A stretch of DNA of 64,000 nucleotides, taken from Mycobacterium seoulense. GTDB taxonomy: Bacteria > Actinomycetota > Actinomycetes > Mycobacteriales > Mycobacteriaceae. Numbering within the stretch: position 1 is the first letter of the stretch; each line of letters starts with the position of its first letter. Shown piece by piece: positions 27,775-46,315 of this stretch. A program made the translations under genes and the position numbers. The stretch covers positions 310,001 to 374,000 of the forward strand of contig NZ_AP022582.1 in assembly GCF_010731595.1 (NCBI RefSeq). Direction: 5' to 3'. Below the pieces are notes generated by a model. It had not been told where the DNA came from. It searched no databases and saw only the letters and a list, made by a program, of their open reading frames with translations.

Positions 27775-28254
27775 TCAGCGGTTGAGCCGCCACACATGGG
27801 TGGCCAGGGTGGTGGCGAAGGAACACCACAGCGGATACGCCGACAGGGCCAGTCCGGCCCGCGGGTCGGCTTCCGCGGCGCGACGCGCGAGGTCCGCGCT
27901 GCTCACCGTCAGCACGGCGGCACCGGCCGCCGAGACGCCGAGTTTGTGGAACCGGAAGAACAGCCAGCTCCACGCGGCGTTGAGAACCAGGTTCACCCCG
28001 AGCGCGGCGGCGTACCGGCGTGCCTTGTCGTGCTGTCCCGCCTCCCGGAAGCGGTCGATGGCCACCGCCGACGTGACTGCGATATCGCCGTAGAGCGAGG
28101 TCCACGCCACCGGGAACGCGGCGCTGGGGGGCTGGTACGGCGGCTTGCGCAGCCGCGCATACCAGGCGGGAGCGGCCTTGGCGTTGGCGACGCTCCCGGT
28201 CACGGCGGCGACGGCGACGGCGAGACTTGTTGCGGCAAGGGTTGATTTGTTCAA
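27775..28254 (-). CDS. tspO: TspO/MBR (translocator/tryptophan-rich sensory) protein
   Basis: A 159-residue, five-segment membrane protein. W-Y-A-R-L-R-K-P-P-Y-Q-P-P (about 31-43) and the aromatic N-A-A-W-S-W-L-F-F (about 92-100) are TspO hallmarks. These proteins bind porphyrins, cholesterol-like lipids or tetrapyrrole products and tune light or oxygen responses in Rhodobacter. TTG 28254 overlaps the mmpL stop by 4 bases (TTGA), so translation is coupled. No other start fits the conserved length. Its place between an MmpL and a photolyase suggests a role in light or oxidative stress. Confidence 0.85.
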   Translation of the reverse strand: MNKSTLAATSLAVAVAAVTGSVANAKAAPAWYARLRKPPYQPPSAAFPVAWTSLYGDIAVTSAVAIDRFREAGQHDKARRYAAALGVNLVLNAAWSWLFFRFHKLGVSAAGAAVLTVSSADLARRAAEADPRAGLALSAYPLWCSFATTLATHVWRLNR

Positions 28255-30360: not shown

Positions 30361-30391
30361 TTTCAGTATGTTAAACATTAATCAACTGAAA
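30361..30391. promoter_or_regulatory. 31-bp symmetric AT-rich operator (site A), mmpL/idi promoters
   Basis: TTTCAGT-ATG-TTAA-ACA-TTAA-TCA-ACTGAAA: both 7-base arms are perfect inverted repeats and the two TTAA cores are symmetric. It lies between the divergent mmpL (start 30350) and idi (start 30485) genes. A possible minus-strand -10 (TAACAT, 30373-30368) lies inside it. This is the best example of the motif also seen at 34154, 42939, 43068 and 46285. Confidence 0.75.
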
Positions 30392-30484
30392 TTACGCATC
30401 GTCACGCATAGGGCGCCGACGGTACGCAACTAGGAGCACTATGGACATTATGGAGCTGAGGGGCCGGGGGTTCGGCGCGCCGGG

Positions 30485-31540
30485 GTGCCAGCCGTGACGA
30501 CTGACCGCGGGCCCATGTCCACCCGCAAGCGGCGGCACATCGACGTGTGCCTCGGCGAACAGGTCAACTATGAGCAACTCAGCACCGGGCTGGACCGCTA
30601 CCAATTGCCCTACAACGCCCTGACCCAGACCAGCCTCAGCGACATCGACCTGTCCGCGAAGTTCTTCGGCGCCAACCTACGGGCGCCGATTCTGATCGGT
30701 GCGATGACCGGAGGTGCCGAGTTGTCGGGCACCATCAACCGGAATCTGGCCGCGGCCGCTCAACAACTCGGCATCGGCATGATGCTCGGCTCGCAGCGGA
30801 TCATGCTCGACAGCGCGTTGGGGGAGCGCGCCGCGGCCAGCTTCACCGTTCGGGACGTGGCCCCGGATGTGTTGCTGTTCGGCAACATCGGCCTGGCCCA
30901 GCTGACCAAGGCCGCCGTGCCCGACCTGGCGAAGGCTCTCGACCGGGTGGGCGCCGATGCGCTTGCCGTGCACACCAATCCGTTACAGGAGGCGATGCAG
31001 CGCAACGGTGACACCGACTTCTCCGGCTCGTTGGGCAGGCTGCGAGATGTGGCCGACGCGATGGATTGCCCGGTGTTGCTCAAGGAGGTCGGCCACGGGA
31101 TCGGCGGCGCGGCCGCCGCGGAACTGGTTGGGGCCGAAGGCGATTTGCCGGTGTCGGGAATAGACGTCGCGGGCGCCGGCGGCACCTCGTGGTCACGGGT
31201 CGAGCAGTTCGTGCGCTACGGCGAGCTGCGCTACCCGCACCTGGCTGATTGGGGCATCCCGACCGCGAAGGCGATCGTGGAGGTGCGCGAGGTGCTGCCG
31301 GACATTCCGTTGGTCGCCTCCGGTGGCATTCGCACCGGCATGGACGCCGCCAAGGCCATCGCGTTGGGGGCCGACGTCGTGGCAGTGGCTCGTCCCCTGC
31401 TGCCCGCCGCCATCGAATCCGCTGCGGCCGTGGTCGATTGGCTGCAGCCATTCATCGACGAGCTCCGGGTCTGCCTGCACGGATGCGGTACCGCAAGCCT
31501 TTCCGGATTGCGCGCCGTCGACCTCACGCCCCTCTCGTAG
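30485..31540 (+). CDS. fni: Type 2 isopentenyl-diphosphate delta-isomerase
   Basis: A 351-residue FMN/NADPH-dependent enzyme interconverting isopentenyl and dimethylallyl diphosphate, the starter for carotenoid synthesis. Hallmarks: R-K-R-R-H-I (about 14-19), [10 protein letters not shown] (about 69-78), H-T-N-P-L-Q-E (about 163-169), and [12 protein letters not shown] (about 224-235), with FMN phosphate contacts near S-G-G-I-R-T-G (about 279). GTG 30485 is the longest start; ATG 30515 is an alternative. It is transcribed with the glycosyltransferase gene from the divergent promoter bearing site A. Confidence 0.95.
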
Positions 31541-31551
31541 CTGCGTGCGTC

Positions 31552-32802
31552 ATGGCGGTGATACTGGCCTACGGGTCGCCGGCCCTGGGCCACCTGTTGC
31601 CGGTCGGGGCGCTGCTGGCCGAGCTCGCCGGCCGCGGCCACGAGGTTCACGCGCGCACGATGGCGGGCGGGGTCGCGACGATGCGCGCGGCCGGCGTGCA
31701 CGCCGAGCCGGTCGATCCCGCCATCGAGGCGATCGCCGGCGAGGATTGGCGCGCGCGAAGCGCGTTGGGAGTCTTGAAGTCGACGATCGACGTGCTCTGC
31801 CGGCGGGCGGTGCTCGAAGTCCACGATCTGCGCCGCGCGGTGGACGCGGTCCGGCCGGACGCGGTCATCGTGGACGCGAACTGCTGGGGCGCGATGTCGA
31901 CGGCGGAGGCGGGCCCCGCTCCTTGGCTGGTGTTCTCGCCGTTCACCCCGTACCTGCGGTCCCGCGGGGTGCCGCCCTTCGGCCCGGGTCTGCGCCCGCT
32001 GCCGGGCATCATCGGCGACATCCGGGACGCCCAGGTGCGACCGATCGTCCGCCATCTCTTCGACCGGCCAATGCTGCCGCGGCTCAACGCTATTCGCGCC
32101 GAGCTGGGGGTGTCGCCGGTCGGTTCGGTGGACGACTTCATGCGGCGCGCGCCGCTGCTGCTGGCCGTCGGCGGGGAACCCTTCGAGTACCCGCACCCCG
32201 GCTGGGCGGGTTTGGTTCACCACATCGGCGCGTGCGTGTTCGAACCCGCGCAGGCGGCCGCGCCGGACTGGATCGATGACATCGAGCGGCCGGTGGTGCT
32301 GGTCAACACGTCCTCGATCAAGCAGCCCGACGCCGCTCTGGGGCGGACCGCGCTGCGGGCACTGGCCGACGAGCCCGTCCACGTCGTGGCGACGTTTCCG
32401 GCCGGCATACCGGCGGATCTGCCGCGACCACCCAACGCGACCATCTGCCGCTTCGTCCCCCACGCGGCCGTACTCGACCGGGCCAGCTGCGCCATCACGC
32501 ACGGCGGAATGGGAACGACGCTGAAGGCCCTCGACCGCGGTGTACCCGTCTGCGTCGTGCCGTTCGCGCGCGACCAGGCCGAAGTGGCACGGCGGGTGGA
32601 GGTCGCTGGCTGTGGCACCCGCCTGGCCGCCAAGAACCTCACCCCGGCACGGCTGAGGGCGAAGGTGCGCGCGGCGATGACGATGGCGGACGGCGCGCGT
32701 CGGGTGGCTGCCGGCTTCGCCGCGACCGGAGGTGTGCAGCGCGGGGCGGACCTGGTCGAGCAGCGGGTGCTCGGCTCCGCCGCCCGGCGGCCGGTGCGCT
32801 AG
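31552..32802 (+). CDS. UGT-type glycosyltransferase
   Basis: A 416-residue GT1/MGT-like enzyme that would move sugar from a nucleotide sugar to a hydroxylated acceptor. The N-terminal acceptor domain begins I-L-A-Y-G-S-P-A-L-G-H-L-L-P. The C-terminal donor site has H-G-G-M-G-T-T-L-K-A-L-D-R-G-V-P (about 320-335) and P-F-A-R-D-Q (about 340-345). It follows idi by 11 bp and overlaps the convergent MarR gene by 4 bp. CrtX, which glycosylates hydroxycarotenoids, is in the same superfamily. A carotenoid acceptor is an inference from location. Confidence 0.88.
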   Translation: MAVILAYGSPALGHLLPVGALLAELAGRGHEVHARTMAGGVATMRAAGVHAEPVDPAIEAIAGEDWRARSALGVLKSTIDVLCRRAVLEVHDLRRAVDAVRPDAVIVDANCWGAMSTAEAGPAPWLVFSPFTPYLRSRGVPPFGPGLRPLPGIIGDIRDAQVRPIVRHLFDRPMLPRLNAIRAELGVSPVGSVDDFMRRAPLLLAVGGEPFEYPHPGWAGLVHHIGACVFEPAQAAAPDWIDDIERPVVLVNTSSIKQPDAALGRTALRALADEPVHVVATFPAGIPADLPRPPNATICRFVPHAAVLDRASCAITHGGMGTTLKALDRGVPVCVVPFARDQAEVARRVEVAGCGTRLAAKNLTPARLRAKVRAAMTMADGARRVAAGFAATGGVQRGADLVEQRVLGSAARRPVR

Positions 32803-33383
32803 GCCGGGTGATCGGCCGCCTTGCCCACCGCGCGGGCCCGGCCCTTCGCCGGCGCGCGTTTCGCGTTGGTCGCCGGCGGCTTGGCGGTCGCTCCGTCGAG
32901 TCGCGATTCAAAGGTCGACATCGCCTCCATCATCGCCAGGAAAACCCGGTGTGCGGCGGCCAGATCCCGGTCGGGCACGTCGGCCAGGGCAGCACGCAGT
33001 TCCGCACCGAGGGGAGTGAAGAACGAACGGGCCAACGCCATGCCCGATTCTTCGTAGCGGAGCAGCGTCTTGCGCCGGTCGTCGGGGTCGGGCTCGCGGC
33101 GCAGGTGGCCGGAGTCGATCATCCGGTCCACCAGGTAGGTGATCGCGGCGGGTGACACGTCCAGGCGCTGCCGCAACTGCGCGGGTGTCAACGGCGTTCC
33201 GGCCGTTTCGGCAACCATGATGTGCAGCAAGGCGTGCAGGTCCGTGCCGCCGACCTCGTTTTGACGCGCGAAGTGCCGGCCGATGCGGTCCGATTGCGCT
33301 GTGAGCGCGCGCATGTCGGCCGACATCAACTTCTCGAGTTCGGCTCGGTCCAGTCGCCGGTCAGCGGCGCCGCGCTTGGTCAC
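32799..33383 (-). CDS. MarR-family regulator 1, CrtR-like
   Basis: A 194-residue MarR protein. The winged helix spans about 45-120: L-H-A-L-L-H-I-M-V-A-E-T-A-G, then S-P-A-A-I-T-Y-L-V-D-R-M-I-D-S-G-H-L-R-R (recognition helix and wing) and D-P-D-D-R-R-K-T. A basic Ala/Lys/Arg-rich tail (about 163-190) is unusual. It is a close paralogue of the MarR at 43132. Probably read from the promoter carrying the 34154 motif, with the 142-residue gene and truncated SDR between. In C. glutamicum the MarR protein CrtR represses carotenoid genes and is released by geranylgeranyl diphosphate. Confidence 0.9.
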   Translation of the reverse strand: MTKRGAADRRLDRAELEKLMSADMRALTAQSDRIGRHFARQNEVGGTDLHALLHIMVAETAGTPLTPAQLRQRLDVSPAAITYLVDRMIDSGHLRREPDPDDRRKTLLRYEESGMALARSFFTPLGAELRAALADVPDRDLAAAHRVFLAMMEAMSTFESRLDGATAKPPATNAKRAPAKGRARAVGKAADHPA

Positions 33384-33551
33384 TTACCTGAGTCCTTCTG
33401 CATGATTCGCCGACCAGCGTATCGGCGACCGCCGCGCGCCGGCCACGAACCCCGACAAGTGTCGCGCATTCGTATGCGATTGCCTCGCCGAGCGGTCCCG
33501 GCAATGTGCCGTGGGCGTTGCGCCAGGTGGCAACCGGCGTGACCGATCGAG

Positions 33552-33650
33552 TCAGCGCCGCCCTCGGCCGCGCCAGGCGACGTCGTCCAGCAGTGGGGGG
33601 ACGAGCCGCGTGCCCAGGTATCCCGTGGCGCCGAACACGACACAATGCAT
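33552..33650 (-). pseudogene. Truncated NAD(P)-binding epimerase/SDR remnant
   Basis: ATG 33650 overlaps the preceding stop (TGATG) and encodes only 32 residues, beginning M-H-C-V-V-F-G-A-T-G-Y-L-G-T-R-L-V-P. That is the cofactor loop (G-A-T-G-Y-L-G) of an extended SDR, normally about 300 residues. The frame then stops. The next 168 bp to the MarR gene hold no further recognisable SDR sequence. I call it a decayed gene; a real short peptide is less likely. Confidence 0.6.
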
Positions 33651-34078
33651 CAATTCACTTCCTCCGCCGACTGTTCGTCGGGGGTGGCGGCATGGGCCGG
33701 ATGCGCGGGTGTGCGCCGGCGTTCTTTCAGCTGCGCTTCGTAGACGTGACGGCGGCCGTCGGTGAGCCGGGTCCGCACCAGGCGCTCGATTTCCCGGAAG
33801 CATCGGTAGTACCCGTCGTCGTATTCGTCGACGACCTGGAAGGTCCACCGTCCCGGTAACACGTTGCGCCCGACCAGTTCGTCGCTGATGTGTTGGGCCA
33901 GTTCATCGTGTCCGAGCTCGCGCAGCTGGGTGACGGCGGTGTCGAGTTGCAGGTCGGCGTGCCCGGTCAGCTGGTGAAACGAGTACAGGTGTCCCCGGGC
34001 GCGCTCGACGGTCTCCAAGGCCTCGGTGACTCTGCCGACCGCCTCCGCGACGGCGTCGCTCGTGCCGTCTTGACTCAT
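33650..34078 (-). CDS. Conserved hypothetical protein
   Basis: A 142-residue, mostly helical, charged protein from ATG 34078, preceded by a good GGGGAGGAAACC ribosome site. It has a central G-H-L-Y-S-F-H-Q-L-T-G-H-A-D (about 30-43), V-G-R-N-V-L-P-G-R-W-T-F-Q-V-V-D-E-Y-D-D-G-Y-Y (about 70-92), and a hydrophilic tail ending in E-E-V-N. I do not recognise a named family. It is the first gene of the probable operon ending in MarR 1. The symmetric motif at 34154-34184 lies 76 bp upstream. Confidence 0.75.
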   Translation of the reverse strand: MSQDGTSDAVAEAVGRVTEALETVERARGHLYSFHQLTGHADLQLDTAVTQLRELGHDELAQHISDELVGRNVLPGRWTFQVVDEYDDGYYRCFREIERLVRTRLTDGRRHVYEAQLKERRRTPAHPAHAATPDEQSAEEVN

Positions 34079-34153
34079 GGTTTCCTCCCCGACTGGTCGC
34101 GATGGCATTCCCGGTGGAATACAGGCCGAATCCCCGGACGCGTATCCGCACAA

Positions 34154-34184
34154 GTTAATTAACTTAACAGTTAAGTTGCTGCCT
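34154..34184. promoter_or_regulatory. AT-rich operator (site E), variant of the 31-bp motif
   Basis: GTTAATT-AAC-TTAA-CAG-TTAA-GTT-GCTGCCT. The outer arms are weak. The inner part AACTTAA-CAG-TTAAGTT (34161-34177) is a perfect 17-bp inverted repeat apart from its centre. It lies upstream of the 142-residue gene that heads the MarR 1 operon. Confidence 0.55.
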
Positions 34185-34261
34185 AGATGCTGGCACGGCC
34201 AATGCTGCTCACCCGTGAACTCTTGCGAATCAAGGGCTTTGCGCGTGCCGGGGCCCGCACA

Positions 34262-34555
34262 TCAAAGCGGCCGGAGATCCTTCTTGGCTGCCCGACGTAG
34301 CTGGATCATCCGTGCGGCGCCGACCAGCACGGTCGTGGTCGCTCCGGCCACCGCGGCCAACAGGTAGCCCACGCCCACGGGCAGGTTCCAGTGGAAGCCC
34401 AAAAAGTGCGCGGTGATCGATTCGGTGTTTTGCGCGACGAAGATGAGCAGAACGATGAGGATCATTAGGCCGACGACTAGCGCCCACCACGCGGCCGCCA
34501 GTCGGGTGAACGATCGCGAGGACGGCTCGGGGGGAACGTGCGACTCAGTGCTCAT
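34262..34555 (-). CDS. LapA-domain (DUF1049) membrane protein
   Basis: A 97-residue protein with two membrane segments (about 21-45 and 58-80). I-F-V-A-Q-N-T-E-S-I-T-A-H-F-L-G-F-H-W-N-L-P (about 38-59) is the lipopolysaccharide assembly protein A/DUF1049 signature, widespread in actinobacteria despite the name. A basic cytosolic tail (R-R-A-A-K-K) follows. Role unknown. It is followed by a 183-bp gap carrying the promoter of the next minus-strand gene. Confidence 0.8.
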   Translation of the reverse strand: MSTESHVPPEPSSRSFTRLAAAWWALVVGLMILIVLLIFVAQNTESITAHFLGFHWNLPVGVGYLLAAVAGATTTVLVGAARMIQLRRAAKKDLRPL

Positions 34556-34657
34556 GCTGGTGACTAGCCCCTCGCGCGGTGAGCCAAACGCGCTCAGCCC
34601 CGAAATGTTTTCGTGCCCTGCGGTTCAAACCACCGGGTCCGGGGTACTTGCCCTGCG

Positions 34658-34906
34658 ATGACTGTGAAAGAGGTGCCGCAGCGTGTCTGGCGTGGCCGGC
34701 GCAACGTACTGCGGCTGCAGCGGGACCTGTGGCTTGCGCAGTTGGCCCTCTGGCCGACGTTGATCCTGGCGGTCGTTCTGCTTTCGGCGGCCGCTTGGGC
34801 CTTGTGGCAACGGAACTCTCGTCGCCGTCAAGCCGAAGCGGTGCCGCCCGGCACGGATTCGTCGGCGGCCGGCGAGCCCGGGTCGCGGCTGGGCCTGAGC
34901 GGCTGA
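34658..34906 (+). CDS. Small single-pass membrane protein (uncertain)
   Basis: An 82-residue frame from ATG 34658. One strong membrane segment (about 32-50, W-P-T-L-I-L-A-V-V-L-L-S-A-A-A-W-A-L-W) lies between basic stretches. There is no clear ribosome site. The 3' 79 bases overlap the convergent DUF2784 gene, which is better supported, so this frame is less certain. No family recognised. Confidence 0.42.
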   Translation: MTVKEVPQRVWRGRRNVLRLQRDLWLAQLALWPTLILAVVLLSAAAWALWQRNSRRRQAEAVPPGTDSSAAGEPGSRLGLSG

Positions 34907-35253
34907 CGCCGAGCGAATAGGCCCCAGGAGATGGCGGCCGACACGAAAGCGAAGAGCTGTGCGACGCCGACGCGGCCCGACGGAACGAGAAGCCCCGCGA
35001 CATAACGGTCGACGAATCCGGTGGTCGGTAGAGGATTCATGGCCGCGCGGCGGCGGGCCCACGATTCCAGTGCCGTCAACGGGCAGGGCAGCTCGAGCGT
35101 GATGACCGCCGCACCCCAGGCGACGGCGGCCCGGTGCAGCGCGATGGTACGTGGCCAGCGCAGCGCGATAAAGCCGCCAACCGGCACGTACGCCAGGTAG
35201 GCGAGGTGCACGCCAACCGTCAGGACGACGGCGGCGACATATCCCTTGCGCAC
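34828..35253 (-). CDS. DUF2784 membrane protein
   Basis: A 141-residue protein from GTG 35253, 10 bp after the Rieske gene stop. It has three or four membrane segments. Y-L-A-Y-V-P-V-G-G-F-I-A-L-R-W-P-R-T (about 18-35), L-P-C-P-L-T-A-L-E-S-W-A-R-R-R (about 55-70) and T-G-F-V-D-R-Y (about 79) are DUF2784 hallmarks. Function of the family is unknown. As last gene of the crt transcription unit it may have a membrane role in pigment synthesis, or be a bystander. Confidence 0.78.
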   Translation of the reverse strand: MRKGYVAAVVLTVGVHLAYLAYVPVGGFIALRWPRTIALHRAAVAWGAAVITLELPCPLTALESWARRRAAMNPLPTTGFVDRYVAGLLVPSGRVGVAQLFAFVSAAISWGLFARRQPLRPSRDPGSPAADESVPGGTASA

Positions 35254-35263
35254 GGCCGAGCCG

Positions 35264-37818: not shown

Positions 37819-38540
37819 GACGGCGCGTCCGCCAGGAACGTGTGCACGATGTTGGCCTCCCAGCCGGGCATCGTTTCGCTGTGCACCGCGGTGAAACCCG
37901 CATCGGCGAGGCGGGCCCGGAAGCGCGCCGCGCCGTCGAACTCCAGCACGCTGCGCCACAGGTAGCGGTACAGCGCCGTGTCGCGGGTGCGCCACCACCC
38001 GGCCGGAATGATGATTCCCCAACACACGGCGTGCCAGATCCAGGTGGCGGCGGGGGAGTCGCGCACCGAGTATTCGTGCACGGCCAGGGTGGCGCCGGGC
38101 CGCAGCAGCATCCGAAGCTTGCGCAGTTGGTCGTCGGGGTTCGCCAGGTTGCGGATCAGGTAGGCGGCCAGGATGCCGTCGAACGGTCCGGCGATGCCGT
38201 GCTCGGCCAGCTTCTCGACCGGGGTGTGCACGAAACGCACCGAGGGGGGCCAATTCTTGGCGGCGGCCTCGTCGAGCATGCCCCGCGACGCGTCGACGGC
38301 GACGATGTCGGCCTCGGGGGCCACGGCCAGCAGCGCGGCCGTCGAGGCGCCGGTGCCGCATCCGGCGTCGAGCAGCCGTAAGCCCTTGCCGCGGTGACGG
38401 ATTCGCATGCGGCGGGCGGAGAGCAGCAGTTGCTCGTGGTAGCCGGGGCTGGCGCCCACCAGCCGGTCGTATGCCGTCGCTCCCGCGTCGAACGCGGCGG
38501 ACAACTGGCCGGGGGTGGGACCGGCCTCACCGACGCGCAC
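37815..38540 (-). CDS. crtT: CrtT-like SAM-dependent methyltransferase
   Basis: A 241-residue class I methyltransferase from GTG 38540, which has GGGAACG upstream and overlaps crtYd by 14 bp. SAM motif I is L-L-D-A-G-C-G-T-G-A (about 56-65), followed by I-V-A-V-D-A-S-R-G-M. The rest resembles UbiE-type enzymes. In Streptomyces griseus and M. aurum, crtT lies beside crtU. Its exact reaction has not been settled in what I know. The symbol rests on context. Confidence 0.8.
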   Translation of the reverse strand: MRVGEAGPTPGQLSAAFDAGATAYDRLVGASPGYHEQLLLSARRMRIRHRGKGLRLLDAGCGTGASTAALLAVAPEADIVAVDASRGMLDEAAAKNWPPSVRFVHTPVEKLAEHGIAGPFDGILAAYLIRNLANPDDQLRKLRMLLRPGATLAVHEYSVRDSPAATWIWHAVCWGIIIPAGWWRTRDTALYRYLWRSVLEFDGAARFRARLADAGFTAVHSETMPGWEANIVHTFLADAPS

Positions 38541-38838
38541 GTTGGCGTTCCCATCCCAGCAGTACCGCGGTGGCCAGCGCGAAGCCGAACAAGAAGTCCT
38601 CGACCGGGATGTCGAACGGGAAGCGCAGGCCGGTGATCTGGCGAGGGTCATAGCTGACGATGGGGGAGCTGAGCTTGGTCAGCCAGCCATCGACCGGGAC
38701 CTGGAAGCCGAGAATGATCAGCATCGACAGCCAGTAGGCCGGCCGCCGGAAGAGCCCGGTACGCAGCACCGCCAATTCCAGTGCGCAGACGACCAATACG
38801 GCCGCCACGGCCGGAACCGTGTAACCCAGGCCGGTCAT
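38527..38838 (-). CDS. crtYd: Lycopene cyclase subunit (CrtYd-type)
   Basis: A 103-residue protein with three membrane segments. It has the lycopene-cyclase domain motif F-D-I-P-V-E-D-F-L-F-G (about 74-84), in which the acidic pair is thought to catalyse ring closure. Together with CrtYc it forms the heterodimeric actinobacterial cyclase that makes beta-ionone rings on lycopene. ATG 38838 overlaps the crtYc stop (ATGA). M. aurum has the same pair of short genes. Confidence 0.92.
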   Translation of the reverse strand: MTGLGYTVPAVAAVLVVCALELAVLRTGLFRRPAYWLSMLIILGFQVPVDGWLTKLSSPIVSYDPRQITGLRFPFDIPVEDFLFGFALATAVLLGWERQRARR

Positions 38839-39158
38839 CGGCGGTTGACCCTGTCCAGGATGGTGCTGACGGCGTTGTAGGTCAGCAGCGCGCATATCGG
38901 GATGACCACGAAGAACAGCACTTCTTCGATCGGCACCCGGAACGGGATACTCAGGCCGGTGATGTAGGCGCTGTTGTAGGTCCAGACGCGGGCGGCGATG
39001 GCGATCTCATCCCAGAGCAGGAACACCACGGCCACGGGGAAGACCGCCTTGGCGAGCCGGCGCCATTGCCGATAGACGCCGGGACCGAACATCTCCAGGG
39101 GGGCGGTGATCGCCAGGCATGCCGCCAGGACCAACAGATATTGCCAGCGATCGGTCAT
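38835..39158 (-). CDS. crtYc: Lycopene cyclase subunit (CrtYc-type)
   Basis: A 107-residue protein with three membrane segments. The signature F-R-V-P-I-E-E-V-L-F-F (about 72-82) parallels that of the neighbouring subunit and places the acidic pair at the membrane face. It is the partner of CrtYd in beta-cyclisation of lycopene. ATG 39158 overlaps crtB by 4 bp. The two halves are separate genes here, in contrast to the fused archaeal/fungal forms. Confidence 0.92.
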   Translation of the reverse strand: MTDRWQYLLVLAACLAITAPLEMFGPGVYRQWRRLAKAVFPVAVVFLLWDEIAIAARVWTYNSAYITGLSIPFRVPIEEVLFFVVIPICALLTYNAVSTILDRVNRR

Positions 39159-40111
39159 GCGGCCCCCGAAGGATCCGAAACACCGGGCGTACTGTTGCGC
39201 GCCCGCCACGACCGTATCAGCCCGATGCCGGCGACCCGCAGGCGTCGAACCTTGCCGACGGTGGCCCGGTGGTTGAAGACCGCGAAGTCGCTGTCCTCGA
39301 TGCGGTCCAGGATTTCCGAATACAACGCCGCCGCCGTCGCCACGCACGGTTGTGAGCGGGGACTGAGCATCGCGATGCCGGCGTCGGCGAACCGGTAAGT
39401 CTCCCGGGTGATCTCGTGCTGGGCGGCCAGCGCCGTTCGGACCCGCGGGTCGGTGCGGCGGTTCCGGTGACACCAGGTCAACAGCTCGCGATCCACTCCG
39501 TGGGCGGCGAGCTCGTCGGCCGGCAGGTAGACCCGCCCGCGCAGCAGGTCTTCGTCGACATCGCGCAGGAAGTTGGTGAGCTGAAACGCCCTGCCCAGCG
39601 CCGCGGCGTAGGGGGCGGCCTCCTCGACCGGAACCGCGGTTCCCAGCACCGGAAGAACCTGCAGCCCAATGGCTTCGGCCGATCCGCGCATGTAGAGGTT
39701 GAGTGCCTTGCGGTCGGGATAGTCGGTGACCGTGAGATCCATCCGCATCGACGCCAAGAAGTCGTCGAACAGCTCGGTGCCGATCCGGTACCGGCGCGCG
39801 GTGTGGGTGACCGCTGCGAGCACGGGATCGTCGAGATGATCTCCACCGGCGAAGAACTTGTCGGCGAGCTGCTGGAGCCGTTCGGCGCGAATATCGGTGC
39901 GCAGCTGCGGATCCAGATCATCGAGGATGTCGTCGGCGTAGCGCGCGAAACCGTAAAGCGCGTGCACCGCCGGCCGTTGGTCGGGTGCCAGTAGCCGCGT
40001 GGCCAAGAAAAAGGTGCGGCCGTGCGCGGCGTTGAGCTCGCGGCAGCGGCGGTATCCCTCGCGAAGCCGCGGATCGTCGATTCCGGCCGCGTCCAACTCG
40101 CTGCGGATCAT
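39155..40111 (-). CDS. crtB: Phytoene synthase
   Basis: A 318-residue squalene/phytoene synthase that condenses two geranylgeranyl diphosphates head to head. The first Asp-rich motif is Y-A-D-D-I-L-D-D (about 56-63) and the second N-F-L-R-D-V-D-E-D (about 179-187), followed by G-R-V-Y-L-P. The N-terminus R-T-F-F-L-A-T-R-L-L is typical. The start overlaps crtI by 4 bp. Length fits the family. All catalytic motifs are intact, so pigment synthesis should be functional. Confidence 0.96.
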   Translation of the reverse strand: MIRSELDAAGIDDPRLREGYRRCRELNAAHGRTFFLATRLLAPDQRPAVHALYGFARYADDILDDLDPQLRTDIRAERLQQLADKFFAGGDHLDDPVLAAVTHTARRYRIGTELFDDFLASMRMDLTVTDYPDRKALNLYMRGSAEAIGLQVLPVLGTAVPVEEAAPYAAALGRAFQLTNFLRDVDEDLLRGRVYLPADELAAHGVDRELLTWCHRNRRTDPRVRTALAAQHEITRETYRFADAGIAMLSPRSQPCVATAAALYSEILDRIEDSDFAVFNHRATVGKVRRLRVAGIGLIRSWRARNSTPGVSDPSGAA

Positions 40112-41640
40112 GTCAGCCCGGCTCCCATGTCGTGATGTGTCGGCATCCGGTTGGCTCTTCCGGCGCCGGTGCCGGTGATGCGGTCGGCGGCGAGCCGGCC
40201 CGAGATCAGCGTGGTGGGGACCCCGACGCCGGGCACGGTCGACGACCCGGCGAGCACCGCGTTGTCGATGCCGCGCACCATGTTCGCCGGCCGGAACGGA
40301 CCCGTCTGCGCAAAGGTGTGGGCCAGCGCGAAGGGGCTGCCCGCGGCCATGCCCTGACGCGCCCAGTCGGCCGGCGTGACGACATCCAAAACCGTTGCGT
40401 TGTCTGGCAACCCGGGCAACAGCCGGTTCGCCACGTCGTCGATGAGGTTGTCGACGTACCGGGGGCCGACAATGTCCCAGTCGATGTTCCCGCGATCCAG
40501 ATTCGGCGCCGGGGCAAGCACGTACAGCAGGTCCCGCCCGTCCGGGGCGAGCGCCGGGTCGCTCGCCGTGGGGCGGGTGACCAGCAGCGACGGGTCCTGC
40601 ATCAACCGTCCGTCGCGGATAATGTCGGTGAAGGTTCGATCCCAGGAATTACCGAACAGAATGGTGTGGTGCGCCGTGTCGGACGCGACGCCGCGACAGC
40701 CGAGATGAGCCACCACCGCCGACGGTGCCGGGCGCAGCCGCAGGGGCCGACGCGGCGTGCGGCCCAATAATGCGTAGGTCTGCGGCAATTCGGTGGTCAG
40801 CACCACCGCGTCGCAGGCGATGGGGTCCAGGCGATCCGTCCGCACGGCGCTGATCCGCCCGCCGGAGCGGTCGAGCCCGGTCACCGTGGCGCTGTAACGG
40901 AATTGGACCCCCGCCTCGGCGGCCGCCGAGGCGAGCGCATCGGGAAGCGCGCGAACGCCGCCTCGCGGAAAGAACACTCCCGCGATGGTGTCCATGTAGG
41001 CGATGACCGCGTACACGGCCAGGGCGTTGCGCGGCGCCACGCCGGCGTAGAGCGATTGAAACGTGAAGACGCGCTGCAAGCGAGGGTCGCTGATGTGGCG
41101 CTTGACCATGTGATCCCATTTGCGGAACCCGCCGATCGCGGCCAGTCGCGCCAGTTGCGGCGTGAGCAGCGACAGCGGGGAATCGAAATTGGCGGCGATG
41201 AACCCGTCGAATTCGATCCGGTACAACCGCGTCAACCACTCGCGTAATCGCCGGTAGCCCGCTGCCTGCCCGAAGCCAGCGAACTCTTCAATGGCGGTGG
41301 CCATGCGCTCGCGGTCGGTGTGCACGTCGAGCGCGCTGCCGTCGGCGAACGCCGCCCGGTAGGCCGGCTCGAGCGGCAGCAGCTCCAGCCGGCCCGACCG
41401 GCTGCGGCCCACCGCCGCGAAGGTCTCGTCGATGATGTCCGGCATCGTCAGCACGGTCGGCCCGGTGTCGATGCGATAGCCGTCGATGTCGAGCCGGCCG
41501 GCGCGTCCGCCCGGCCACGGCTCGCGCTCGACCACTGTCACGGTGCGCCCCCGGCCGGCCAGGTGCAGCGCGGCTGACAGCCCCGCCAGCCCGGCGCCGA
41601 TCACGACCACGTGCTCGCTGCGTCCTTCGATGGTCCGCAT
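40108..41640 (-). CDS. crtI: Phytoene desaturase
   Basis: A 510-residue FAD-dependent bacterial CrtI, which introduces double bonds in phytoene to yield lycopene. FAD loop V-V-V-I-G-A-G-L-A-G-L-S is at 11-22, followed by E-R-E-P-W-P-G-G-R-A-G. The C-terminal flavin region includes T-F-A-Q-T-G-P-F-R-P and V-P-G-V-G-V-P-T-T-L-I-S-G-R (about 480-493). ATG 41640 lies 27 bp after crtE. The neighbouring genes fix its role. Confidence 0.96.
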   Translation of the reverse strand: MRTIEGRSEHVVVIGAGLAGLSAALHLAGRGRTVTVVEREPWPGGRAGRLDIDGYRIDTGPTVLTMPDIIDETFAAVGRSRSGRLELLPLEPAYRAAFADGSALDVHTDRERMATAIEEFAGFGQAAGYRRLREWLTRLYRIEFDGFIAANFDSPLSLLTPQLARLAAIGGFRKWDHMVKRHISDPRLQRVFTFQSLYAGVAPRNALAVYAVIAYMDTIAGVFFPRGGVRALPDALASAAAEAGVQFRYSATVTGLDRSGGRISAVRTDRLDPIACDAVVLTTELPQTYALLGRTPRRPLRLRPAPSAVVAHLGCRGVASDTAHHTILFGNSWDRTFTDIIRDGRLMQDPSLLVTRPTASDPALAPDGRDLLYVLAPAPNLDRGNIDWDIVGPRYVDNLIDDVANRLLPGLPDNATVLDVVTPADWARQGMAAGSPFALAHTFAQTGPFRPANMVRGIDNAVLAGSSTVPGVGVPTTLISGRLAADRITGTGAGRANRMPTHHDMGAGLT

Positions 41641-41667
41641 ATCAGCATGCTCCCAAACTCGTGGCAC

Positions 41668-42798
41668 TCATTCGGCACGATCCGTACAAGCGGCCGCCAT
41701 TTCGTCCAGCGCGGCGCGGACGTGGTCCTCGATCGCGGTGTCGCCGAGGTGTTCGCGCGCGGCCGCGACCCGGTCGCTGATCATCTCCTCGATCATGTCG
41801 ACGGCCCCGGTCTCGAGGATCAACGCTTTCCAGCGTTCGAGGGCGCCGGCCTCCAGGGCGTGGCCGTTCATCAGTTCGGTCAGCTCGGCGCGGGTCGCCG
41901 AGTCGGCCAGCTGGTGCGCGGTCACCACGACGCTGGTTGCCTTGCGTTCCAACAGATCTCCGGCACACGGCTTCCCGGTGGTGGCCGGCGAGCCGAAGAC
42001 ACCGAGCACGTCGTCGCGAAGCTGGAACGCCTCTCCGACGGCGGCGCCGTACCGCCCGAGCTGTGTCAACGTCCGGTCGTCGCAGTCGGACATCGCCGCG
42101 CCGATTTCCAGCGGTCGCCGCACGGTGTAGTTGCCCGACTTGCGCCGCGCAACGTCCAGCACCGCCTCCAGCGAAGGCATGTGCCGGACATCGTTCGTCA
42201 GGTCCGCGAACTGACCGACCGCGAGCTCGGTCCGCATCGTGTCGTAGCGCGGCCACGCCTGCTGCAACCGCCTGGCTTCGATCCCGCTTTCGCGCAGCAT
42301 CTGCTCGGACCAGATCAGGCACAGATCACCGAGCAGGATGGCGGCCGATTCGCCGAAGCGCCGCGACGAGCCGGAAAGCCCGCGCTCGCGGTGCCACTGG
42401 GCAAATTGCAGGTGCGCCGACGGTCGCCCGCGCCGTTCGGTCGAACTGTCCATGACGTCGTCCTGCAGCAGCGCAAACACATGCAGCAACTCGAAACTGG
42501 CGGCCGCCCGCAATGCCGCCTCGTCGGGGGCGGCACCGCAGAGCCACCCCAGGTACACGAACGTCGACCGTAGGCATTTGCCTCCGGAGACGAACGCCGC
42601 CAAGATGTCGCCCGCAGCATCGATGCGCGTGTCGCCCAGCTCGGCGCGGCGCGGCGCGACGAACCCGGCGAGGTGGGCGAGAACTCCGTGCCGCACGCGC
42701 GTGCGCCACTCGGTGAAGTTCGCTGTGCGGGTCCATTCCGCCGCGATTACCGGCGACTCGGTGGCTCGAGTCAACGACAAAGCACCCATCTCGGCCAC
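41668..42798 (-). CDS. crtE: Geranylgeranyl diphosphate synthase
   Basis: A 376-residue trans-prenyltransferase making the C20 precursor of phytoene. The first Asp-rich motif is L-L-Q-D-D-V-M-D-S-S (about 110-119). The second is F-Q-L-R-D-D-V-L-G (about 247-255), with the D-D-x-x-G form common in actinobacterial crtE proteins. GGKxxR-type G-G-K-C-L-R is at about 72-77. GTG 42798 has GGGAGG five bases upstream; ATG 42789 is possible. It is the first gene of the crt operon and lies 140 bp from site B. Confidence 0.94.
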   Translation of the reverse strand: MAEMGALSLTRATESPVIAAEWTRTANFTEWRTRVRHGVLAHLAGFVAPRRAELGDTRIDAAGDILAAFVSGGKCLRSTFVYLGWLCGAAPDEAALRAAASFELLHVFALLQDDVMDSSTERRGRPSAHLQFAQWHRERGLSGSSRRFGESAAILLGDLCLIWSEQMLRESGIEARRLQQAWPRYDTMRTELAVGQFADLTNDVRHMPSLEAVLDVARRKSGNYTVRRPLEIGAAMSDCDDRTLTQLGRYGAAVGEAFQLRDDVLGVFGSPATTGKPCAGDLLERKATSVVVTAHQLADSATRAELTELMNGHALEAGALERWKALILETGAVDMIEEMISDRVAAAREHLGDTAIEDHVRAALDEMAAACTDRAE

Positions 42799-42938
42799 GC
42801 GCTCCCTCCCGGACGGCTTGGCATTCCCAGGTTAGAACGGCTCAACCGCGCGTGGGCATGACCGCCGCTCGGACGCGCAAGACCGCGCCGATGGGCGGCA
42901 GACCCGCACCCGCCGAACCCGTCCTGAGGTTCCACTAA

Positions 42939-42969
42939 CTTCAATAACTTAAACATTAATTTACTGAAA
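42939..42969. promoter_or_regulatory. AT-rich operator (site B) of the crt operon
   Basis: CTTCAAT-AAC-TTAA-ACA-TTAA-TTT-ACTGAAA. The core and right arm equal site A, and the left arm matches it at 5 of 7. It lies in the 333-bp gap between crtE (42798) and MarR 2 (43132), which contains no gene besides promoter DNA and sites B and C. Confidence 0.7.
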
Positions 42970-43067
42970 TTCATCGCGCTTGGCCAGCCCTGTCGCATGG
43001 ATCGGCGATCAACTGGCGCGGTCCGTCGTCTCCTCACGCCTGTGAGAACGACGCGGTCGCACACACG

Positions 43068-43098
43068 GTTCAATCAATTAACCATTAACCAACTGAAT
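43068..43098. promoter_or_regulatory. AT-rich operator (site C) of the MarR 2 gene
   Basis: GTTCAAT-CAA-TTAA-CCA-TTAA-CCA-ACTGAAT. A TATGCT -10 element lies at 43117-43122 with the ATG at 43132, so the right arm of site C falls on the expected -35 position. This fits repression and autoregulation. Confidence 0.7.
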
Positions 43099-43131
43099 GA
43101 TCGTCTGTTTTGGGGATATGCTCACACCGTT

Positions 43132-43626
43132 ATGGACGCCGATCAACAGCACGGGCACCGAGATGCGCTGGAGTCGCTGATCTCGGCCGATCTGCGGGAG
43201 ATCGCGGCCGAATCCGACCAGATCGGCCGGCAGTTCGCGGTGTCACATCAATTGCGGCCCAATGACTTCCGTGCATTGATGTACATCATGGTGGCAGAAA
43301 CCGCGGGCCGTCCGATGACCTCGGGTGACCTCAGCCAGCGGATGGGGCTGTCCGGTTCGGCCATCACCTACCTGGTGGACCGATTGATCGATTCCGGCCA
43401 CATTCGCCGTGATTCACATCCCGACGATCGTCGCAAGGTCATCCTGCGGCACGGCGAATCCGGCCTGGCCACCGCCCGGTCGTTCTTCAGCCCGCTGGCC
43501 GCCCACACCCATGTCGCCCTCGAGGAGCTGGCCGACGGCGACCTGGTCGCCGCCCATCGGGTGCTGGCCGCGCAGATCCGCGCGATGCAACGGTTTCAGG
43601 GCGAACTGGATGGCCCCGCACATTGA
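43132..43626 (+). CDS. MarR-family regulator 2, CrtR-like
   Basis: A 164-residue MarR protein from ATG 43132. The winged helix spans about 40-115: F-R-A-L-M-Y-I-M-V-A-E-T-A-G, S-G-S-A-I-T-Y-L-V-D-R-L-I-D-S-G-H-I-R-R and H-P-D-D-R-R-K-V. Its DNA-reading helix nearly equals that of MarR 1 (32799-33383), so both should read the same operator. It is divergent from crtE with sites B and C between. It lacks the basic tail of MarR 1. Longer in-frame starts would place site C in the coding region. Confidence 0.92.
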   Translation: MDADQQHGHRDALESLISADLREIAAESDQIGRQFAVSHQLRPNDFRALMYIMVAETAGRPMTSGDLSQRMGLSGSAITYLVDRLIDSGHIRRDSHPDDRRKVILRHGESGLATARSFFSPLAAHTHVALEELADGDLVAAHRVLAAQIRAMQRFQGELDGPAH

Positions 43627-43769
43627 TCGGCGATCCCGCCAGGCGCCACCGCGCTGACGCCCGACCCGCCGGGGGTCTGCCGGTTTGGCGACGTCGCCGC
43701 TGGGTACACCCGGTTCATCAGATTGTCCGACCAAATCCCTCGGACGGACGTGAGGGGTGGTGCGGCCCA

Positions 43770-44495
43770 ATGGAAGCGGTCAGCTGCCGGCGCGGTCGGG
43801 TGGCGCTCGCATTCGCGATCACGGTGATGGTCGTCGGCTCCCCGAGCCCGGCAAAGGCCGGCCCCAGCGTCACGGTGTTTCCCGGCATGGAGATTCGTCA
43901 AGGCGCCACGGTGTGCATGGTCGGTCTGGTGGAGCCCCGGTTGCGGGTGGCTGTCACCACCGGACAGTGCGGCAACGGAGAGCCGGACGTCACCGACCAT
44001 GACGGGAACCCGGTGGGAACGGTGGTGCTGGCCCGCCGCCAGGCCGCCGACGACGCGGCGGCGAATGGCGCGATGCAGCCCGTCGAATACGAAGTCATCG
44101 CGCTTGGCCCCGCCGTCACAGCCTCGGATGTGCTGCCGACGGGCCGGCAGCTGAGGTCGGCGCCCGGCCTGCGGGCCCAGCCCGGCCTGCCGGTGTGCCA
44201 GTTCCGCCGAGCGGGCGGCCAGCGCTGCGCCTCGATCGGCTCGGTCAGCAATGGCCGTTTCACCATGGCCGACGTGGCGCTGGACAGCCGCGACTTCGGT
44301 GGTCCCGTCTATGCGCTGACCGACGACAATGGGGCCGTGATCGTGGGGCTGTTCGAAGGCATCTGGGGGTCTGCACCCCAGATGGAGTCGTGGCAGGCGG
44401 TGATGCAGCAGGTCTACATCGACGGGCGTGCGCAGGAACAGCAGCAACAACCGCCCGGGGAAGCGCGCATGATCGGTCGGCGGTCGGCCGCGTGA
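43770..44495 (+). CDS. Secreted trypsin-fold protein with degenerate catalytic triad
   Basis: A 241-residue protein with a signal peptide (1-30). The layout is that of a chymotrypsin-like (S1) protease: Cys49-Cys67 around V-A-V-T-T-G-Q-C, C143-C153 (V-C-Q-F...R-C), and D-S-R-D-F-G-G-P-V-Y (172-181). The catalytic His is Gln66 (T-G-Q-C for A-G-H-C), the Ser is Phe176 (D-F-G-G for D-S-G-G), and the Asp region reads V-E-Y-E-V. It should be inactive as a protease and may bind ligands. The family call rests on motifs alone. It follows the MarR gene by 143 bp. Confidence 0.75.
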   Translation: MEAVSCRRGRVALAFAITVMVVGSPSPAKAGPSVTVFPGMEIRQGATVCMVGLVEPRLRVAVTTGQCGNGEPDVTDHDGNPVGTVVLARRQAADDAAANGAMQPVEYEVIALGPAVTASDVLPTGRQLRSAPGLRAQPGLPVCQFRRAGGQRCASIGSVSNGRFTMADVALDSRDFGGPVYALTDDNGAVIVGLFEGIWGSAPQMESWQAVMQQVYIDGRAQEQQQQPPGEARMIGRRSAA

Positions 44496-44612
44496 ACGCT
44501 CCGCCGCGCCAGCGCTGCGCGGCTGATGCAAGGGCCGGAGCGGAACGCGGAGACATCGGCGCGTTTCCCTCGTGAGGAAACGGGAACCCGCCGCCGGTGA
44601 GCGTTTCCGATC

Positions 44613-45275
44613 TTGTCGCGTTGCCACTTCCAGTGGGGCTCCGCCATCCGGGGCAAACGGTTGTTTCACCCGATCGGGGTGTTGGCCGAAGGCTTCATCG
44701 AACGCACCGCGCCGGTGGACGAGGGGCTGCCCATCCCGTCGTCCGAGCTTGTCGCGCGGGTGTCGAAGGCCAGCGGCACCCCGTGGGCCCTGCCCGACTT
44801 CGTCGGGCTCGCGTTCCGGGTTACGCCGCCGCAGGCAACGGGGCCATGGGACGTCCTGGTCGTCTCTTCGGGCTCGGGGGTGTTGTCCCGGGCGCTGGCG
44901 CTGCGGCCGGCCATTGCGTGGAGCGGTCAGACGCTGACCACATTGATGCCGCCGCACTATCAGGGGGCCAATTGGTGGCTGCGGGCCCGCATCGAGAGCG
45001 AGATCGACAGACCCGGCCTGTCGCTGGACAGCGTCCGCGCGCGGCTCGCGCACGACGCGATCGCCGTGTCGCTCGATCAAGCCTGCGGCAGAGGTGATTT
45101 CACCCCGCTGGGCCGGCTCACGCTGACCGGGGTCCGCGACCCCGAACGGGCACAGGACGTGTCGTTCGATCCCGTCGTCAACACGGCCCCCGGCGTCAGC
45201 CTGCACCCGCGGTGGCTCGCCGATCTACGCGCCCGCGCTTATCGGCGCAGCCGTCACGGTAGGGACGCGGACTAG
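44613..45275 (+). CDS. Hypothetical protein, possible catalase-like fold
   Basis: A 220-residue protein from TTG 44613. No ribosome site was found and the start is not certain. R-V-S-K-A-S-G-T-P-W-A-L-P-D-F-V-G-L-A-F-R-V (about 49-70) with W-D-V-L-V-V-S-S-G (about 78-86) loosely resembles the heme-pocket segment of catalase-fold proteins. Similar mycobacterial proteins are often labelled phosphodiesterase without visible motifs. I do not recognise a proven function. It ends 24 bp before the convergent hydrolase gene. Confidence 0.62.
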   Translation: MSRCHFQWGSAIRGKRLFHPIGVLAEGFIERTAPVDEGLPIPSSELVARVSKASGTPWALPDFVGLAFRVTPPQATGPWDVLVVSSGSGVLSRALALRPAIAWSGQTLTTLMPPHYQGANWWLRARIESEIDRPGLSLDSVRARLAHDAIAVSLDQACGRGDFTPLGRLTLTGVRDPERAQDVSFDPVVNTAPGVSLHPRWLADLRARAYRRSRHGRDAD

Positions 45276-45299
45276 AAGGTGCGGCCCTCCGCCCGCTCG

Positions 45300-46286
45300 T
45301 CACCCCAGCGTGGTGATGGTGCCGGCGGTCAACAGTTCGGTGTAATAGCCCCCGCCGGGATAGAACTCGGGTGTGGTCGTTCCCGCGAACATGTCGGCGA
45401 TCCAGCCGCGTGTCAGACCCCAGACCGCCGCGACGTTGTCCGGTTTCGGACGGCCGCACACCAGGTTTTCGTACAGGGGTGACGACGGGCCGAGGGCGTC
45501 GCCGTGGGCGCCGGTCGTGATCTTCACGCCGTGAAACGGGCGGTCCGACAGGTACCGTTCGATCGCCTTGGTGCCGCGTTGGAAGAAGTTGCACAGCAGG
45601 TGTGGCGAGGCCGTCGCGTAGATGGGCAGGGTGGTGCCCGCCAGGCCCGCCAGCGCGTCGTCGGTGTTGGAACCGATGAACGACTTCACGCCGTCTTCGC
45701 TGACGAGGCCGCGCAGTTGGGTGAATGCGGCCGGGTGGGCGGTGTGTAGGCGCTCGGCGACGTATTCGACGGCTTCGGCACCTGCCGAATGCCCCACGAA
45801 GACCATCTTCTCGGGTAGCGGCGTCACTGGTCGGCCGACGTCGGCCGCCGCCATCGCGAAGGACTTCGCCAACGCGCCATCCGGATCGTCTTTGTGCGCA
45901 AAGACATCGGCGACGTTGTCGAGGAAGGCCCTGTTGTCGATGAGGTGCTCCACGGTGCATCCGAAGGCGCTGAGGGTGGGCAGCGTGGTGGCCACCACGA
46001 GGTAGCCGCCGGCGGCGACCTCGGCGGCGAAGGTGGACCACACCTTCTTGCCTTCGACGAAGCCGTGCTGTAACCAGACCAGTCCCAGCGGCGGGATGCT
46101 GGGCAAATACCAGGTGGTCGGCACCGCCTGGGTCGCGCTCGCGCACGCGACGTCGGTCGTGCTGTCCGCTTCGGTGGATTCGGCTCGGGCCTGGCGGGGG
46201 GCGAGCACGATCGCGGCCACCGCGACGATGCCCATCAGGACCGCGCTGCCCCGACGGGCACGCCCGACCAGCGCGCCTGAGATCAT
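45300..46286 (-). CDS. Secreted alpha/beta hydrolase
   Basis: A 328-residue hydrolase with a signal peptide (1-36, ending R-Q-A-R-A). The oxyanion region is L-Q-H-G-F (about 72-76), the nucleophile elbow V-G-H-S-A-G (Ser167), and candidate acid and His lie in S-E-D-G-V and G-A-H-G-D. It looks like an esterase or lipase acting outside the cytosol. The start codon lies at the edge of site D, so it probably belongs to the MarR regulon. A pigment-ester substrate is a guess from context. Confidence 0.85.
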   Translation of the reverse strand: MISGALVGRARRGSAVLMGIVAVAAIVLAPRQARAESTEADSTTDVACASATQAVPTTWYLPSIPPLGLVWLQHGFVEGKKVWSTFAAEVAAGGYLVVATTLPTLSAFGCTVEHLIDNRAFLDNVADVFAHKDDPDGALAKSFAMAAADVGRPVTPLPEKMVFVGHSAGAEAVEYVAERLHTAHPAAFTQLRGLVSEDGVKSFIGSNTDDALAGLAGTTLPIYATASPHLLCNFFQRGTKAIERYLSDRPFHGVKITTGAHGDALGPSSPLYENLVCGRPKPDNVAAVWGLTRGWIADMFAGTTTPEFYPGGGYYTELLTAGTITTLG

Positions 46287-46315
46287 TAAGGGATTGAACC
46301 ATTAAGTTAGTGAAA
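46285..46315. promoter_or_regulatory. AT-rich operator (site D) at the hydrolase start
   Basis: ATTAAGG-GAT-TGAA-CCA-TTAA-GTT-AGTGAAA. One core is TGAA rather than TTAA and the left arm matches 4 of 7. It touches the hydrolase ATG (46286), so the site would cover its promoter. Confidence 0.55.

Follow-up and report, generated by a model that had tools for sequence, protein, structure and literature searches.

Probable CrtR repressors and the repeated element of Mycobacterium seoulense

A MarR-type repressor of carotenoid genes, CrtR, is already known from several studies (PMC5401885, PMC7432914, PMC6739363, PMC9861118). For C. glutamicum CrtR and its orthologues, repression of crtE and of the crtR gene itself has been described, along with frequent clustering with an mmpL gene and the need for a TTAA element; a footprint extends over 52 bp, with multiple bound sites suggested by the authors (PMC5401885, PMC7432914, PMC6739363). 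In M. kansasii, loss of crtR raises expression of crtE, mmpL1, and fni, and light induces crt, fni, mmpL1, crtR, and the phrB-tspO-mmpL2 locus (the latter by 27- to 32-fold), as well as mpk83, mpk70, and PE genes (PMC9861118). Whether CrtR also controls the light-induced genes beyond carotenoid metabolism was left open in that report, the main text of which contains none of the terms 'palindrom', 'operator', or 'inverted repeat'. Our literature search likewise found no description of a mycobacterial CrtR operator, most subscription papers being outside its scope. Here, we describe a repeated symmetric element from a 64,000-nucleotide stretch of the Mycobacterium seoulense genome (contig NZ_AP022582.1, positions 310,001 to 374,000; hereafter, the window), which holds a carotenoid gene island encoding two MarR-type proteins, MarR 1 and MarR 2. 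From its sites, their spacing, conservation, and placement, and their co-occurrence with the CrtR gene, we conclude with a probability of roughly 0.9 that the element is the operator to which CrtR, present here as two paralogues, is predicted to bind as a repressor.

The general form of the element is a pair of 13-bp palindromes, TTNA-N5-TNAA, with centers 16 bp apart, which can be written as the relaxed 29-mer TTNA-N5-TNAA-N3-TTNA-N5-TNAA. Five exact matches to this 29-mer occur in the M. seoulense genome (5,531,300 bp) versus none for a reversed-pattern control, and at ≤2 mismatches the counts are 14 versus 4; the motif is real and lies far above chance expectation. The initial annotation of the window had described a 31-bp motif, TTTCAGT-N3-TTAA-N3-TTAA-N3-ACTGAAA or close variants, at positions 30361, 34154, 42939, 43068, and 46285, and sites are indeed present at all five. 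That description suits the sites at 30361, 42939, and 43068, which have 0, 2, and 3 mismatches to the 31-mer, respectively (chance expectation at ≤3 mismatches, 0.00 in 100 shuffles), but not the site at 46285, which has 5 mismatches when read by eye and matches the relaxed 29-mer exactly. The full 31-mer was rejected as too strict, given that it misses the 46285 site at ≤3 mismatches. Similarly, the site at 34154 had been called a core-only variant; it has two mismatches to the 29-mer, both within the last half-site, and an intact left 13-mer, but TTAA-N3-TTAA, the core without its flanks, shows no genome-wide enrichment (6 sites versus 5 for the reversed control, with 4 of the 6 inside the island) and was rejected as the motif. 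Four of the five exact 29-mers are the window sites at 30361, 42939, 43068, and 46285, while the fifth lies ~4.5 Mb away along the contig (G000:C1:4851214-4851242, equivalent to L031:9214-9242), upstream of a second mmpL gene. Its distance to that gene is 83 bp to the assumed ATG, or 5 bp if a longer open reading frame (ORF) with a TTG start is real. With this exact site before a distant mmpL gene, the idea of a regulon confined to the island is not borne out. At the equivalent spot in another genome (G038, L032), the site precedes an mmpL-like gene, and in G080 (L033) an exact site precedes a second crtE-like gene of 69% identity. No Rfam family reached its gathering score in the window.

The locus can be compared with both described systems. 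It resembles that of C. glutamicum in its predicted crtE and crtR targets, its mmpL neighbor, and its TTAA element, whereas the published C. glutamicum site is a 15-19 bp motif without paired 13-mers and the reported regulon is small. A primer in PMC5401885 contains TTAATATTTTTAA, which by our own reading fits the 13-mer. The letters of the 19-bp C. glutamicum site differ between a passage of PMC7432914 and the PMC5401885 primer, and TTAA is found only in the primer version. As for M. kansasii, its light-induced genes largely coincide with the operator-bearing genes, and genomes of kansasii-type layout have a CrtR of the MarR 1 clade (see below), whereas in M. seoulense phr-tspO-mmpL2 lies in the same island and a second paralogue is present. 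The two kansasii-type genomes, assigned as such by layout, whose photolyase locus was examined (G091, G074) carry a 1-mismatch putative operator 11-12 bp before mmpL2-tspO-phr. This placement predicts direct control by CrtR and would answer, by comparison, the question left open by PMC9861118.

Placement, conservation, and co-occurrence with CrtR genes

Placement was examined in 80 named loci around CrtR homologues, the best 80 of 349 relatives and exclusive of M. kansasii. An exact site was present in 75 of these loci and a site at ≤1 mismatch in 78. Together, the loci (1.53 Mb) contain 125 exact sites, versus none for the reversed pattern or for any of five first-order Markov resamples. For the upstream counts, sites at ≤1 mismatch were accepted if the gene lay no more than 250 bp downstream, and gene hits were left out if they were near locus ends, scored <60, or started beyond query residue 25. 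On this basis, a site lies upstream of crtE in 25/25 cases, mmpL1 in 14/14, mmpL2 in 40/43, and CrtR (MarR 2 label) in 71/77; for the genes of the 142-aa and 328-aa proteins the counts are 8/17 and 5/13. No site was found upstream of crtB (0/31), the lycopene cyclase genes (0/35 and 0/33), Rieske (0/43), GT1 (0/23), GT4 (0/23), or lapA (0/19). Site-to-start distances are constant: most slow growers have 33-36 bp to CrtR, and for mmpL2 the usual distance is 9-13 or 41-42 bp. The site at 30361 recurs at the same position with near-identical sequence in relatives. Within an 18-row alignment of the region between crtE and MarR 2, mean column identity is 0.94 for the operator at 42939 and 0.90 for that at 43068, compared to 0.70, 0.51, and 0.78 for three stretches around them. 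The site upstream of MarR 2 makes autoregulation of this gene probable. In locus L035, two identical putative operators lie 2.3 kb apart (G134:C4:4821231 and 4823544); the ORFs surrounding them are repeated as well, so that the arrangement looks like a tandem duplication.

At ≤1 mismatch, the loci contain 138 sites, 124 of which adjoin a query gene; each of the remaining 14 stands before a SOUL heme-binding gene (PF04832 confirmed for 4/4 genes checked). Among the 22 SOUL genes in the 80 loci, 21 have a site 68-155 bp upstream, the exception (L108) being a partial hit. Those with an operator belong to slow-growing Mycobacterium and Mycolicibacter (L065, L067-L069, L074-L076, L079, L087, L088, L093, L094, L099, L102, and others), and a TspO-like gene and fni often follow them. 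Two kansasii-type loci (L149, L150) have no site directly before the SOUL gene, and the sole SOUL homologue found in M. seoulense (G000:C1:1716739-1717353) has no 29-mer at ≤2 mismatches nearby.

Co-occurrence was counted from the per-genome tables of a scan of 396 Mycobacterium genomes, in which the best ~9 first-look candidates per genome were scored and CrtR was called present at E <= 1e-25. A close MarR 2 homologue was found in 262 genomes and an exact 29-mer in 205; both were present in 201 genomes, CrtR alone in 61, the site alone in 4, and neither in 130, while the reversed-pattern control matched in 8/396. The association between the site and the CrtR gene is clear in its direction, although its Fisher value of 8e-51 is not to be taken at face value, as the test treats related genomes as independent. 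The motif is therefore not missing upstream of orthologous genes in relatives, a finding that had been named in advance as contrary to a MarR regulon; it is retained at 78 of 80 loci and tracks the MarR gene over 396 genomes. Both results support the regulon proposed in the initial annotation, but the regulator is of a type already known as CrtR and thus not of a new kind. In G002, one of the site-only genomes, the match takes the form of a direct repeat and has the look of a chance occurrence. Exact 29-mers also occur in G003, G147, and G328, which gave no CrtR hit at the same threshold.

At the level of the family, 351 genomes were surveyed; 128 of them, from 14 genera, have CrtR (profile E <= 1e-25), and 35 have the exact 29-mer. 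Outside Mycobacterium, the exact 29-mer adjoins CrtR in three genomes (G396, G426, G559), and the remaining exact matches look like chance repeats. When 20 of the 99 CrtR-positive genomes outside Mycobacterium were sampled at ~6.5 kb each, a 29-mer at ≤3 mismatches was present in 16/20 loci, in every case within the CrtR-mmpL2 interval; the rest of the 129 kb had none. The 13-mer in these genera has a form close to YTCAG-N3-CTGAR.

Binding unit, paralogues, and alternative explanations

Pairs of TTNA-N5-TNAA are offset by 16 bp in 125 cases, with ≤2 cases for any other offset. Other gap lengths for the 13-mer gave no comparable pairing except gap 12 with offset 9 (72 cases) and gap 1 with offset 4 (10 cases); since TTAA is self-complementary, we interpret the gap-12/offset-9 signal as a shifted reading of this one element. 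Mutual information among 136 different 29-mers is highest within the 13-mer (0.131, shuffled maximum 0.040). Six loci without an exact pair (L086, L104, L113, L121, L125, L128) retain one exact 13-mer upstream of CrtR, and lone palindromes also occur in other genera (L207, L212). In another-genus locus, L208, the spacer between CrtR and mmpL2 (~2540-2600) reads as three 13-mers in the 16-bp register, while around the Mycobacterium sites a third 13-mer in this register is not above background (272 flanking units). Because of the covariation within the 13-mer, the lone 13-mers, and the three units of L208, we take the 13-mer to be the site of one dimer. Thus, the symmetric element of the initial annotation, with its 3-4-3-4-3 spacing, is present, but it is probably made up of two copies of a 13-bp palindromic unit at a 16-bp offset rather than being one 31-bp site. 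One CrtR dimer would occupy each 13-bp palindrome, most sites having two units, and as 16 bp is ~1.5 turns of B-DNA, two neighboring dimers would sit on opposite faces of the DNA. Such 13-mers in a 16-bp register suggest an unusual modularity of operator design. Operators with two dimers side by side over ~28-31 bp are known for QacR, but QacR is a TetR-family protein, unlike the MarR-type CrtR, and the likeness is one of layout only.

It is also conceivable that all 31 bp form one nested site for a single CrtR dimer, with TTAA-N3-TTAA inside and TTTCAGT/ACTGAAA outside. The element is symmetric about its own center, C is preferred in the outer half-sites (TTCA) and A in the inner ones (TTAA), and the outer pair (hs1-hs4) has a mutual information of 0.111 (shuffled maximum 0.029). 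All the same, we consider a nested site quite unlikely, as lone 13-mers stand upstream of CrtR in several loci, the mutual information peaks inside each 13-mer and is nil for the inner pair (hs2-hs3, 0.007), and L208 resembles three units in register, even though no third unit was seen in Mycobacterium.

The two paralogues both score above the cut-off for Pfam MarR_2 and MarR, as winged-helix MarR proteins do. MarR 2 adjoins crtE, and its relatives are divergent from mmpL2 or crtE, which is the setting beside crt and/or mmpL genes described for CrtR; a TTAA-containing element is also found in the sequence upstream of its own gene and of crtE. We propose that MarR 1 and MarR 2 are CrtR in the mycobacterial sense and would work like the C. 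glutamicum protein. Their recognition-helix stretches, which the initial annotation had called almost identical, agree at 13/16 positions (23/32 including the wing). In a protein tree of 135 rows, which omits most duplicate loci as well as hits with a stop or <130 residues, MarR 1 falls in a 37-row clade (support 100/100). MarR 2 belongs to another clade, of 61 rows (92/94), comprising CrtR-type regulators found adjacent to mmpL2 or crtE. The L047 sequence has an ambiguous residue and a divergent C-terminus. The proteins of fast growers and other genera lie outside both clades. The MarR 1 clade includes the CrtR of the kansasii-type loci L147, L148, L151, and L152, a type assigned by layout (crtE-crtI-crtB-crtYc-crtYd-mmpL1-crtR, with fni convergent); judged from the tree, the M. 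kansasii-type CrtR corresponds to MarR 1 and not to the crtE-adjacent MarR 2. Both paralogues probably read the same operator, because sites persist in genomes with a single CrtR of MarR 1 type (L046, L147, L148, L151) and the operator is also present in fast growers, whose CrtR belongs to neither clade. The rival view, in which the operator serves only one paralogue and its partner has acquired other sites or ligands, would be in keeping with the long branch of the MarR 1 clade (0.7) and with the rarity of MarR 1-label genes having a site of their own (3/29, all divergent single copies, in L121, L123, and L125). We regard it as unlikely, though by no means negligible, given that crtE, fni, or mmpL2 still has a site in genomes whose only CrtR is of MarR 1 type and that the recognition stretches are so similar.

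Several observations weigh against the element being a CrtR operator. The site is scarce upstream of fni (3/26), tspO (4/29), phr (1/30), and MarR 1 (3/29), and precedes crtI in just 1/26, in a locus without a crtE hit. All 80 loci were picked for lying near a CrtR gene, and the stretch beside the crtE start (0.92) is about as conserved as the operators. An exact 29-mer is lacking in 61 of the 262 CrtR-positive genomes, some of which were inspected, and the Fisher test shares the dependence among relatives mentioned above. Two of the sampled loci from other genera (L206, L211) show no site, and in the Mycolicibacter loci L093, L094, L099, and L102 the 230 bp next to CrtR contain no exact 13-mer. 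Mutual information makes a weak case for the 13-mer, with the outer-pair value nearly equal to the within-13-mer value. Lastly, PMC6739363 reports low similarity (21.8%) between the CrtR proteins of M. marinum and C. glutamicum, argues for their independent evolution, and assigns mycobacterial CrtR to a branch of its own.

The CrtR-positive genomes without an exact site would also fit a different protein, encoded elsewhere, that binds the element and has CrtR as a passenger. This is very improbable, since the site is fixed beside the CrtR gene itself across genera and CrtR is the reported crt repressor of both M. kansasii and C. glutamicum (PMC9861118, PMC5401885). Equally improbable is that the conserved AT-rich sequence belongs to a promoter or serves a sigma factor instead of being a repressor site. 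The sites do lie near start codons, and TANNNT-like hexamers can be read inside them by eye, but they are nearly restricted to genomes with CrtR, keep one fixed 16-bp register, and occur as a single site common to divergent genes.

Proposed regulation and the genes of the island

In the CrtR operator model, the promoters or start regions of crtE, crtR itself, fni, mmpL2-tspO-phr, an unlinked mmpL1, and a few accessory genes would be occupied by CrtR before induction, and a light-linked ligand would release it, turning on the whole gene set together. That CrtR binds the sites, how many dimers do so, that the two paralogues share them, and what the ligand is are inferences. What appears to be new is the tandem 13-mer design and the two paralogues apparently sharing it, together with predicted targets beyond carotenoids, namely MmpL, TspO-photolyase, and, in other species, SOUL heme-binding genes. 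A sequence-defined predicted operator for mycobacterial CrtR would allow its regulon to be read directly from genomes.

Published ligand candidates for CrtR are geranylgeranyl pyrophosphate (GGPP) and other isoprenoid pyrophosphates (PMC5401885, PMC7432914), which PMC6739363 contests, that group not having reproduced the GGPP effect. The most widely conserved predicted CrtR target in the family is the divergent mmpL2, and no crt genes were found around CrtR-mmpL2 in the fast growers and other genera sampled, within the sequence examined (~6.5 kb each for other genera). We would tentatively suggest, while considering it doubtful, that CrtR is at root the repressor of a family-wide defense module against endogenous photosensitizers rather than a carotenoid regulator, that slow growers brought carotenoid synthesis under it, with a CrtR duplication, and that the inducer is a light product of a cellular tetrapyrrole. 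A tetrapyrrole product comes to mind because TspO and SOUL, two tetrapyrrole-binding types, are both in the operator-bearing set alongside photolyase and carotenoid genes: TspO binds tetrapyrroles (PMC9861118), and SOUL proteins are named after heme binding (Pfam). Protoporphyrin IX serves as a light trigger in Myxococcus (PMC8156234), and our literature search found no porphyrin action spectrum in mycobacteria. Light acting upon a cellular tetrapyrrole as the CrtR trigger is speculation by analogy, and with SOUL genes among the candidate targets such a tetrapyrrole-linked light signal becomes testable.

Table 1. Predicted operators and genes of the M. seoulense carotenoid island (window positions)
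Feature	Position	Strand	Basis or remark
phr, DNA photolyase	26431..27759	-	Pfam DNA_photolyase and FAD_binding_7
tspO	27775..28326	-	Pfam TspO_MBR 3.1e-33; ORF as listed, true start probably further in
mmpL2, MmpL-family transporter, first gene of mmpL2-tspO-phr	28251..30350	-	Pfam MMPL 2.8e-97
CrtR operator 1 (predicted)	30361..30391	.	exact 31-mer; between divergent mmpL2-tspO-phr and fni-glycosyltransferase
fni/idi, type 2 isopentenyl-diphosphate isomerase	30485..31540	+	NCBIfam TIGR02151, 343.5 bits (cut-off 281.3)
Glycosyltransferase after fni	31552..32802	+	Pfam EryCIII-like_C, UDPGT; start codon assumed
MarR 1, paralogue	32799..33383	-	Pfam MarR_2 5.4e-13; 37-row clade
142-aa protein	33650..34078	-	conserved in relatives
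Degenerate operator (predicted)	34154..34184	.	2 mismatches to 29-mer; upstream of 142-aa gene
Two heterodimer-type lycopene cyclase genes	38527..39158 (38835-39158, 38527-38895)	-	Pfam Lycopene_cyc
crtB, phytoene synthase	39155..40111	-	Pfam SQS_PSY 1.8e-66
crtI-type phytoene desaturase	40108..41667	-	Pfam Amino_oxidase 5e-43; name from position and homology
crtE, polyprenyl (GGPP-type) synthase	41668..42798	-	Pfam polyprenyl_synt 7.8e-46
CrtR operator 2 (predicted)	42939..42969	.	upstream of crtE-crtI-crtB-lycopene cyclase genes
CrtR operator 3 (predicted)	43068..43098	.	upstream of MarR 2
MarR 2, CrtR-type MarR regulator	43132..43626	+	Pfam MarR_2 5.8e-13 on longer ORF; tree
328-aa protein, signal-peptide-like start	45300..46286	-	no recognized family
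CrtR operator 4 (predicted)	46285..46315	.	exact relaxed 29-mer; abuts start codon of 328-aa protein

The genes of the island are listed in Table 1. The 142-aa protein has no Pfam or NCBIfam match, and the 328-aa protein has none in Pfam, NCBIfam, or PDB sequences, which leaves its earlier label of secreted hydrolase unsupported. Between the 142-aa gene and the lycopene cyclase genes is a block encoding a DUF5914/Rieske protein, an amine-oxidase-type protein, and a methyltransferase. In L101 (Mycobacterium interjectum, ~15-20 kb), crtU-like and Rieske genes occur in two copies, with MarR 1 between the copies. Finally, a gene at 43623-44495 of the window overlaps the end of MarR 2, with which it is possibly co-transcribed, and scores 251.8 bits (cut-off 175) with an Rv1815-family serine proteinase model.

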